This document shows positions 15,642 to 25,978 of a stretch of DNA of 64,000 nt, piece after piece (positions within the stretch are counted from its first letter, which is position 1; every line of letters begins with the position of its first letter). Origin of the DNA: Collybiopsis luxurians FD-317 M1 (Eukaryota > Basidiomycota > Agaricomycetes > Agaricales > Omphalotaceae); contig KN834759.1 of NCBI GenBank assembly GCA_000827265.1, positions 477,666-541,665 of the forward strand. Reading direction: 5' to 3'. The notes beneath the pieces were generated by a model. The model was given only the letters and a program-made list of their open reading frames with translations, made no database searches and was not told the DNA's origin. Position numbers and translations under genes: made by a program.

Positions 15642-17516
15642 ATGAATCGTTCGCAGACAACAGCTCCGTCCCCTCTACTAACAGTTTTTAGGAGCTTTCC
15701 GGCTCCTTCAAGTTCTATACCTTATATCGACTATCGCTCAACATCCAGGATTCATTTCGATGAATTGAGCCGATTCCTGGCAGCTTGTCCCACTAAAAGT
15801 GCGTATCTTTATCGAAATCGGATTCGGATCAAGTCCTGAAAAATCTCCGCTCAGCTTCACCAAGCTACCGCTCAAAAGCTAGACGAAGTCTCACCCGGCT
15901 TACCATAGCTCAATTTCACGAATTATCTACTGACGTTCATGACGAGTGTACTCGTCGGAAGAGCAGAGACATAGGCAAGCCGTTTGGTATGAATGTTTCC
16001 GAATTGATTGCTCATCCGCCATAGTACCCTTCCTGTTCGCCAGAGAAGAATTTCACCCTAAACGTAACCAGGCCCGGCAGAAATTAGCCACCTTTGAGAC
16101 TTCAAGGTTTGAGGATCTTGCCAGTGATGTTCACTTTGAGTTGTCGAGGAGATATCCTGAATTTAAGGAAGACGTGTGTTCCTTGTCTGACCTGCGACCA
16201 CCCATATACTCAACGTACTTTCTATGAAGCCGAACGGAAGAACTTCCGCCGGATCCAACTACGATGACGATCCGGCTCCTGGTTATCTGTCGTCAACTCC
16301 ACGAACGTATGGGCGGGTCTGGGATGATCATTGGCCCTCAAAAGGCTTCAGGGATTATGTCAAATATGGCGAAAAACCCCCTCAGGACAAGAACCAGAGA
16401 TTAGAAGAGACCAGAGATTATGGTCACCGGTCTAGTGCCGCTAGCAGCCTAAATGCCACTAACGAAATAAATACAGTGTCTGAAGTAGAAATCCACTACC
16501 CTACAGCTGGGACTGGTTTAAGTCCAGCGACTCCAGTCCCTTGGATGCCAGCCATAACGAATCAACCCCTGGCAAGGCTGCAGGATGAAACCTTCCCGCC
16601 AACTGGGCATCTTGCACTGGTATTCACAAACATTTGGGACTTCACACATTTGTGGGAAGTTAATCAAGCAATGGGTGTTGCATTAGAGATGTACAATGCC
16701 ACTCTTAGACGCAATATTGGCATTTGTGGTGGGTACGAGGTCAAGACTCGAGGAGATGGCTTCATGTGTGCCTTTCCAACAACAATGGCTGCAGTCTGGT
16801 GGAGTCTGGTGGTACAGATAGAGCTGCTTGAGCAGGATTGGCCACTGGAAATTCTCCAAGGTAAAGAAGGAAAGCCAGTTTATGGTCCTAACAATCAGCT
16901 CATCACCCGAGGACTTTCTGTGAATATGGGAATTCACTGTGGGGTCCCATTGTGTGAAATTGATTCTGTTACACAACAGATGGACTATTTTGGTCCAATG
17001 GTGAATCGTTGCGCTCAAATCAGCTGCAGTGCCACCCGAGGGCAAATATTGTGTAGCCAAGAGGTCATTTGTGAAATTAAAGCAAAGTTATACAATGGCC
17101 TGCCAACACCATACTCAGATTTCCAACTTTCAGCGGCAGTGGAAAATGTTCGTCAGCTGGGAGTGTCAATTTTTGAAATTGGGGGAGTGAATGTCAAAGG
17201 CCTCGAAATACCTCAAGATTTACATGTCATCTACCCCAGTCAGCTTGATGGTCGACATAGTCTTTACAAAATGACGCAGCCTTCAGAGGTCATTTCCACA
17301 GATTCCGACCAGAAATCCATCAACCATATAGATTCAATGTCATTGACTCATAATAGTAGCCTGGTGCTTCCAATAATGCAGAAAATCCTTCTTTGGAACA
17401 AAGACCCTAGCTCCTCAGCTGAAAATCTTACATGGATGCAAGGCCTTCTTGCCTTGATTGACAAAACAATACTTCAAGAACTGGCAGATCTGATTCAATC
17501 TATGAGTGCTTTGTGA
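15642..17516 (+). CDS. Spa2-type polarity domain fused to adenylyl cyclase domain (chimeric gene 1, N-terminal part)
   Basis: Exons 15642-15798, 15855-15986, 16025-16173 and 16230-17516 give 574 residues. Residues 1-150 match the N-terminus of the polarisome scaffold Spa2: YRSTSRIHFDELSRFL, then two SHD repeats (SLTRLTIAQFHELSTDV and KRNQARQKLATFETSRFEDL) and SRRYPEFKEDP. Residues about 260-470 are a class III adenylyl cyclase catalytic domain of the Cyr1 type (GHLALVFTNIWDFTHLWE, GGYEVKTRGDGFM, GLSVNMGIHCG, MDYFGPMVNRCAQIS). The first metal-binding Asp is Asn (codon 16629-16631) and the catalytic Arg of the NxxxR motif is Gln (17016-17018), so cyclase activity is unlikely. The protein ends ELADLIQSMSAL because the intron donor expected at 17502 reads ATGAGT. 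Without that change it would run on into the kinase module downstream. Confidence 0.8.
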
Positions 17517-17565
17517 ATTACAATAGGTATACTGTATTACAACTTCCTTACTTTTATGTCAACAG

Positions 17566-25000: not shown

Positions 25001-25978
25001 CTGTCTGCCTGAAAGTTCTGAGACTGATCGTTGAGCCGGATGAAGAGGTACGTAAAAATATTCGAAGGGTAAGCTTTTGGCACAGTAGTTTAAGAAAACA
25101 ATAATTAATCGGTCTGTCGCTAGCAATTCTATAATGAGGCGCTGATATGGAGGCAGTTGAACCACCCAAACATTCTCCCTCTTCTGGGTGTCAATGTAGA
25201 CCTCTTCAGGCCTTCATTCTGTCTCATCTCACCTTGGATGAACAATAAAGATATCATTTCGTTCCTAAAGCAGCATCCGTTGCATAACCGACAGAAAGTA
25301 GTGAGTATTTACTATTATAAGCTACTTGCTTTGGCTGAAACAATTTCTCTCACCACCGATCGCGATAGTTCTTGGAGATTGCAGCTGGTCTGTCTTATCT
25401 TCATTCAAAAATCACACATGGAGATATCCGTGGGGTTTGTAGCAACCTTTCCAGATTTCCGTGCATAGCCTAAGCTAAGATCTGCACTGCTTTTCTTAGG
25501 CTAACATACTGGTCACGGAAGACTTACACTGCTGCCTTGCTGATTTTGGTTTAGCTCTGACCACTTCTGATTCTCAAGCATGGTCTGCAGCGACAACAGG
25601 CACCATGAAAGGAGCAATAAGGTGGATGGCACCCGAGCTTCTGAATACCGAGGGTTTGCCGGATGAGATCTTAAAAAGCCCCTCCAGAGATATCTTTGCA
25701 CTTGGGTGCACGATGGTTGAGGTACTTAAGCTTTCGGAATTTTGCATGCTGAAGTACATTCGAATTTTCAGATAATAACGCTGAAACTGCCTTTCCATGA
25801 TCAGAAAACTGATTACGCAGTGCTCGCTTGTATTGTATCTGGCAAACGACCTGCGCGCCCCGAAAATGTATGGTGTACAGATGTAATCTGGCATCTTATA
25901 ACTCGCTGCTGGGCACAAGAACCTACAGACCGTCCGAGTGCCCAGGAAGTTTACGAAGAGCTAAAACATCCTTTATGA
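22058..25978 (+). CDS. KIN4-like pseudokinase fused to TKL-type kinase (chimeric gene 2)
   Basis: Eight exons (22058-22495, 22594-24666, 24728-24916, 24970-25068, 25124-25300, 25369-25434, 25500-25721, 25772-25978), every intron phase 0, encode 1156 residues. Residues about 95-390 match fungal KIN4/FRK1-type kinases: [65 protein letters not shown]. The Gly-rich loop is shortened (REGEKLGLH), HRD is HRN (AAC 22801-22803) and DFG is DFS (AGT 22861-22863), so this domain is probably inactive. A long Ser/Thr-rich linker follows to residue about 830, ending QELADLIQS. The C-terminal module has an all-helical pre-domain and a second kinase with CLKVLRLI, HGDIRGANIL and DFGLA intact. This half is probably active. 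TTG and ATG starts upstream of 22058 are out of frame or less likely. Confidence 0.85.

Follow-up and report, generated by a model that had tools for sequence, protein, structure and literature searches.

Two clades of kinase modules in the mushroom Collybiopsis luxurians are joined to copied pieces of host regulators at an intron-marked joint

In a window of 64,000 nucleotides from Collybiopsis luxurians FD-317 M1 (contig KN834759.1), two adjacent genes, called here gene 1 and gene 2, place pieces of different host proteins in front of a similar six-exon kinase module. A sequence-only reading of this DNA had proposed a common kinase to which pieces of core proteins are joined at one constant place, and the proposal holds beyond the two genes, extending to two clades, 19 modules and 14 parent genes. 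In both clades the kinase modules lie behind pieces of different host genes, with a short pre-joint exon directly upstream. The recurrence of this joint, exon set and module elsewhere in the genome (loci are named below by contig and position) shows that the likeness between gene 1 and gene 2 is not due to chance. It is nearly certain that we are looking at a kinase family that has been joined repeatedly, at an intron-marked joint, to copied pieces of host regulators.

Modules were searched for within the same genome (64.26 Mb, 200 contigs). The module gave 213 exon-by-exon matches, and a composite query of the pre-joint and first module exon gave 71 matches at expectation values (E) up to 0.1, which were collapsed by hand to about 62 loci having the first module exon; this number is approximate, as four of the loci have E above 0.0005. 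Upstream DNA was examined at about 40 of the 62. For the tree, 41 rows of exon matches were reduced to 39 by dropping C36:216k (two modules mixed) and C3:1411k (a fragment), and C49:148k, which has no match to module exons E5-E6, was omitted, giving 38 modules (FastTree). Clade A comprises nine of them (support 1.0; two on C11, two on C23, one on C42, four on C52), and clade B ten (support 0.994; nine on C12, and C9:302k). The remaining modules are four with other pieces and 15 more, and the deeper nodes are partly weak (one has a support of 0.25). By eye, most of these 15 possess their own short, ATG-containing N-terminal exon, several have apparently complete unrelated genes upstream, and most of the modules looked at outside the two clades seem unfused.

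Within the clades, the median ratio of nonsynonymous to synonymous substitution rates (dN/dS; here and below a counting-method value obtained without an outgroup) is 0.18 for clade A modules (36 pairs) and 0.19 for clade B (7 of 10 modules, 21 pairs). All but one module in each clade (8 of 9 in A, 9 of 10 in B) keep the catalytic lysine, HGD and DFG and have no stop in the matched exon parts. The region C12:909900-917800 carries module copies preceded by unnamed pieces, and includes C12:911k.

Gene 2 is the clearest case: its KIN4 copy looks catalytically dead by sequence yet is conserved, and the kinase that follows it has retained the catalytic residues. Its features are as follows (positions in the window).

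22058-22495 and 22594-24666, plus strand: exons 1-2, KIN4 copy (Pfam Pkinase; parent at C11:230938-233332; alignment; dN/dS)
about 22334-23229, plus strand: KIN4 kinase domain, followed by a long linker
24601-24666, plus strand: shortened pre-joint segment, terminating in ELADLIQS
24667-24727, plus strand: joint intron, phase 0, GTAAGT..CTGCAG
24728-24916, 24970-25068, 25124-25300, 25369-25434, 25500-25721 and 25772-25978, plus strand: module exons E1-E6 (Pfam PK_Tyr_Ser-Thr)

In silico splicing joins the eight exons of gene 2 (22058-25978) into a single frame of 1156 residues without a stop; each of the seven introns begins with GT and ends with AG. Pfam bears out the earlier description of a KIN4-like kinase joined to the module, with Pkinase at the N-terminus (4e-54) and PK_Tyr_Ser-Thr in the module (PF07714, 1.8e-41). 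The first module exon encodes no methionine, and expression from its start thus requires splicing from upstream. The C-terminal kinase keeps the VCLKVL lysine, HGDIRGAN and DFG. The KIN4 part is identical to its parent at 219 of 266 aligned positions of the kinase domain, yet its glycine loop has a 4-residue deletion and has lost one glycine, HRD has become HRN (the catalytic aspartate) and DFG has become DFS (the glycine); 18 hallmark positions were assigned from motifs, and 4 of them are changed (G225 was misplaced and is discounted). Against the parent, dN/dS is 0.11 (0.07-0.17) for the exon-2 kinase lobe (209 codons, 83% identical), 0.25 (0.15-0.41) for exon 1, which contains the damaged glycine loop, and 0.32 (0.24-0.42) for the linker. 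Judged by sequence, gene 2 thus combines an active-type kinase and a pseudokinase in one protein.

Gene 1 looks like a three-part member (Spa2, cyclase, kinase) that was recently inactivated, as its module is otherwise constrained relative to the other clade-A modules (dN/dS 0.10-0.18, 8 pairs). It is laid out as follows.

15642-15798, 15855-15986 and 16025-16173, plus strand: exons 1-3, copied 5' part of Spa2 with two SHD repeats (Pfam GIT_SHD in exons 2 and 3; open frame; parent DNA match)
16230-17501, plus strand: exon 4, remainder of Spa2, Cyr1-type cyclase and pre-joint segment E0 (acceptor at 16230 set by eye)
about 16608-17078, plus strand: Cyr1-type cyclase core (Pfam Guanylate_cyc; parent Cyr1 at C22:682748-683428, 63%)
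17364-17501, plus strand: pre-joint segment E0, ending in ELADLIQS (E0 match)
17502-17503, plus strand: joint-donor site, AT in place of GT
17566-17754, 17814-17915, 17977-18153, 18209-18274, 18334-18555 and 18612-18818, plus strand: module exons E1-E6 (exon matches, lengths)
17820-17822, plus strand: in-frame TGA in module exon E2

The Spa2 and cyclase assignments made earlier for gene 1 agree with Pfam, which finds two GIT_SHD repeats (2.5e-10, 1.4e-10) and Guanylate_cyc (1.3e-17). The six module exons also match gene 2 in order and nearly in length, as had been described, with 189, 102 (99 in gene 2), 177, 66, 222 and 207 bases. Both genes had further been said to have their joint at ELADLIQS exactly on an intron donor; this stands for gene 2 (GTAAGT) and fails for gene 1, where the site reads ATGAGT and the frame ends four codons on. 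Moreover, E2 reads DI*RG where gene 2 has DIWHG. Because of the AT at the joint donor, the stop four codons on and the TGA in E2, gene 1 probably no longer yields a fusion product, or yields the Spa2 and cyclase part only. An alternative donor a few codons on, with a later acceptor, keeps the frame on paper (by eye), but the TGA in E2 stays. An AT-AC type intron at this joint is unlikely: its 3' end would be AG, and GT or GC stands at the donor in the sister copies. The cyclase core of gene 1 is identical to the Cyr1 parent at 107 of 157 positions, and one Asp is changed to Asn at the putative first metal site. Its dN/dS is 0.11 (0.00-0.19) or 0.14 (0.00-0.23) in two cuts, and is rough because dS is near 2. 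At the DNA level, the match of the Spa2 piece to the Spa2 parent on C3 spans introns.

Of the 18 clade-A and clade-B modules listed (C12:915k is not among them), 16 have GT as joint donor and one has GC; gene 1 is the exception. Piece and pre-joint share one open frame in gene 1, gene 2, C23:435k, C23:445k, C52:157k, C52:162k, C52:169k, C12:903k and C12:937k. At C12:715k they do so on paper, with part of the kinase end in another frame, so that splicing there must be more complex. The long frame at C52:175k contains only short further matches to the parent, and that at C12:959k extends to a segment common to clade B. At C12:934k and C9:303k splicing is needed to join piece and pre-joint; C42:33k has an in-frame stop between its zinc piece and the pre-joint, unless this is spliced out; and at C12:940k, whose piece is a BTB domain, a stop separates the two, and fusion is therefore not shown there. 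Two C52 copies show sharp boundaries: at C52:157k the last base matching Spa2 is 2618 of the compared stretch and the first matching the module is 2619; at C52:169k the corresponding bases are 4242 for DYRK and 4246 for the module. About 26-55 bases upstream of the DYRK-fused C52:169k resemble the sequence that precedes both Spa2 and the Spa2-fused copy. The DYRK piece thus sits, by its sequence context, as if substituted for a Spa2 piece.

The captured pieces are varied; the names Cyr1, Spa2, Kin4, Gcn4, GCK and DYRK are assigned from Pfam classes and what is known of these families. In clade A, the RA-LRR-PP2C part of Cyr1 is found at C23:435k and C23:445k and its cyclase half in gene 1, with a zinc-cluster piece at C42:33k, Spa2 at C52:157k, a Gcn4-like piece without its bZIP at C52:162k, the N-terminus of a DYRK kinase at C52:169k and a piece of a coiled-coil gene at C52:175k. 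The clade-B pieces include, by Pfam, a Bud6 N-terminus (PF23153, 4.7e-43), a GCK Pkinase (2.7e-42), a zinc cluster (2.5e-6), BTB (1e-8) and poly(A) polymerase (1.6e-52), and are unnamed at C12:934k and C12:937k. The piece at C12:934k, a tentative nucleoporin candidate, has no Pfam match.

Separate parents were found elsewhere in the genome for all nine clade-A members and for all seven members searched of the ten in clade B; hence in 16 of the 16 searched the piece copies a separate host gene, as in an integrated decoy. For clade A these parents are Cyr1 on C22 (63% in the cyclase, 76% in PP2C), Spa2 at C3:325k (77%, second repeat), Kin4 at C11:231-233k (63%, 69%), DYRK on C15 (75%), a gene at C2:1552k (57%), a bZIP gene at C52:287k (49%) and a zinc-cluster gene on C101 (58%). 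For clade B they are GCK on C5 (88%), Bud6 on C27 (82-86%), a gene on C7 (63%), BTB on C4 (55%), a zinc-cluster gene on C40 (66-81%), poly(A) polymerase on C83 (77-91%) and a gene on C10 (58%). Each of the 14 is counted once, and those on C2, C7 and C10 are unnamed. The search covered pieces other than those before C12:911k, C12:915k, C12:928k, C9:726k and the C15 and C36 modules. For the piece common to the two C49 modules, no parent was found among the 36 candidates scored out of 141, and its likeness to Atf1 lies below the Pfam cut-off. DNA-level comparison covered the clade-A copies; for those compared, retroposition is ruled out, as the matches span introns.

A third Cyr1 copy with LRR and PP2C, 82% identical to the parent over 393 codons, lies at C23:454500-458500, about 10 kb from the two fused copies; neither cyclase nor kinase module was seen in it, and it is possibly an intermediate of the capture process. 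In C42:81500-88500, around 85.5-85.9 kb, an orphan zinc-cluster-like piece that resembles the fused copy at C42:33k is accompanied by a pre-joint, and no kinase exon was matched there. In addition to its two fused copies of Spa2, the genome has two Spa2-type SHD genes, at C3:324500 and C3:1181100.

What the pieces do is less certain than how they are arranged. We regard it as plausible, though somewhat short of probable, that these kinases are sensors into which host baits have been integrated, in analogy to plant kinase-fusion resistance proteins. Slightly more tentative is the wider proposal of a fungal sensor system built by repeated capture, with a constant kinase output and, as interchangeable baits, copies of the host's cyclase, polarity, cell-cycle, mRNA and transcription regulators, independent of nucleotide-binding leucine-rich repeat receptors (NLRs) and convergent with the integrated decoys of plants. 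Whatever its origin, a piece is linked by the joint intron to the same six-exon kinase. As bait or sensor, the piece would present the surface of a core regulator (a cyclase, polarity scaffold, cell-cycle kinase or transcription factor). Its engagement, whether by a foreign effector, by a protein of an antagonist or by a native partner that has been displaced, would activate the attached kinase, which would give a defence or arrest signal. Replacement of the piece would change the sensed target and leave the output constant.

A decoy function gains support from the fact that both enzyme pieces in the window have lost catalytic residues while remaining constrained. Catalytic loss with a conserved fold fits a bait, but the pieces that are regulatory regions would fit docking as well. 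Among the pieces on C23, the two fused Cyr1 N-terminal (Cyr1-N) copies give dN/dS values of 0.22 (0.17-0.28) and 0.36 (0.27-0.49) when compared to each other, and 0.13-0.16 when compared to the parent, at dS 0.8-1.15. Several observations weigh against sensing by baits. The copies of Spa2, Gcn4 and the C2 gene on C52 have dN/dS of 0.52-0.53, and the DYRK copy there 0.37-0.40, with upper bounds of 0.51 and 0.62; as a neutral copy beside a constrained parent gives about 0.5, constraint on the copy itself can be argued only from the KIN4, cyclase and Cyr1-N group. The captured GCK kinase and poly(A) polymerase still show catalytic motifs in their translations, so that loss of catalysis is not general: a kept fold with lost active-site residues fits the KIN4 and cyclase copies, and not these two (by motif reading). 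Some members look broken, namely C12:911k (HGN, SGFG and a stop), C49:148k (E5-E6 not found), gene 1 and C42:33k. Finally, no domain of known defence pathways was found by Pfam in the pieces scanned.

The pieces could instead be docking tags to the partners of their parents, which would make the fusions dominant regulators of these pathways without an immune role. Ras or CAP are partners of Cyr1, mitogen-activated protein kinase modules of Spa2, and actin factors of Bud6. In line with such rewiring, most of the nameable parents are regulators, some pieces are regulatory parts from which the enzyme is absent (the DYRK N-terminus without its kinase, the Cyr1 RA-LRR-PP2C without cyclase), and both fused Cyr1-N copies are constrained; but varied pieces on close, often clustered paralogues, together with broken members, resemble fast turnover and not stable wiring, and we hold this account to be rather unlikely. 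Another account is that tandem kinase clusters recombine and pick up gene fragments, the chimaeras being mostly transient and functionless. The four broken-looking members named above, the orphan pieces (the Cyr1 fragment at C23:456k, the zinc fragment with pre-joint at C42:85k) and the three C52 copies at dN/dS of about 0.5 agree with such a by-product; the long intact frames, the constrained kinase modules and the low dN/dS values (0.25 for a whole exon of gene 2 and 0.11 for the kinase lobe within it; 0.13-0.16 for both copies of Cyr1-N) do not, and we consider this account improbable.

Allorecognition, in which the fusions would be incompatibility genes that respond, once hyphae have fused, to non-self alleles or to disturbance of core regulators, is suggested by reasoning from a family whose loci are partly clustered and in which a variable sensor part is combined with a single kind of output part; no known cell-death domain was found among the Pfam matches of the pieces scanned, and we give this account very little weight. 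Least credible of all is that pieces and modules are separate neighbouring genes misread as fusions. The frame of gene 1 does end right after the joint, and the BTB piece at C12:940k has a stop before the pre-joint. Against this stand the single frames in gene 2, C23:435k and 445k, C52:157k, 162k and 169k, and C12:903k and 937k, and the first module exon of gene 2, which lacks a methionine. We therefore reject this explanation for gene 2, and keep it for the present product of gene 1 and for the BTB case.

The module resembles a known lineage. FslK is described as a fungi-specific kinase lineage close to tyrosine kinases and expanded in Agaricomycetes, with additional domains in 16 of 241 members that are not tied there to a function (PMC3937382). 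The family studied here is likewise an expanded mushroom kinase family, and by its motifs the gene 2 module fits the FslK or tyrosine kinase-like (TKL) type: it lacks AARN (RGAN instead) and the first proline of subdomain VIII (GAIRWMAPE), and has a proline at the GXR(L/M) place (GKRP). Among the best 60 of 842 PDB matches of this module, all are tyrosine kinases (EGFR, MET, FES and others). Unlike what is described for FslK, two clades here carry copies of host regulators, although some of the 16 FslK members may be alike. A large TKL set was reported earlier in Laccaria bicolor (PMC2838846).

The kinase-fusion and tandem kinase resistance proteins of Triticeae (Yr15, Sr60, Sr62, Sr43, Lr9) have been proposed to be integrated decoys, and they combine a functional-looking kinase with a typically non-functional kinase or an unrelated domain (PMC10260397), much as gene 2 combines a damaged kinase with a kept one. 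Those proteins are from plants, whereas the present genes are fungal (their genome encodes SHD, Aip3/Bud6 and fungal zinc-cluster domains), their pieces trace to parents in the same genome and they share an intron joint; they would work like the Triticeae proteins without being members of that group. In Sordariales, NLRs with kinase domains are presented as carrying a host kinase copy (similar to PRD-4/CHK2) on a receptor family, a proposed decoy (PMC12258605). There, the receptor has a NACHT domain and the kinase is the candidate bait, whereas in the present family the kinase is what all members share, and no nucleotide-binding domain was found: Pfam gave neither NB-ARC nor NACHT in the two N-terminal exons of gene 2, in its module starting at GDLTREV, or in exons 2-4 of gene 1. 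Plant NLRs with integrated domains (PMC4759884, PMC4246468) similarly carry variable pieces of host proteins on a common signalling chassis; here, however, the chassis is a kinase, and several pieces are long N-terminal parts of their parents and not single domains. No description of fungal kinases bearing copies of host regulators was found among the open-licence literature matches listed, judged by title and start of abstract, a scope that does not extend to subscription papers and preprints.

The large kinase expansions of mushrooms have, to our knowledge, no settled role, and intracellular sensing of viruses, bacteria, mycoparasites or non-self in basidiomycetes is, as far as we know, poorly understood. 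If the pieces are baits, their parents (Cyr1, Spa2, Bud6, Kin4, DYRK, GCK, and the Gcn4-like, zinc-cluster and poly(A) polymerase genes) would list the targets of antagonists in the fungal cell; if they are docking tags, signalling would have been rewired wholesale. Under bait or docking alike, the role of these kinases could be tested gene by gene.

Elsewhere in the window, 44331-45113 is a stretch read as N (unknown residue) inside an open frame.

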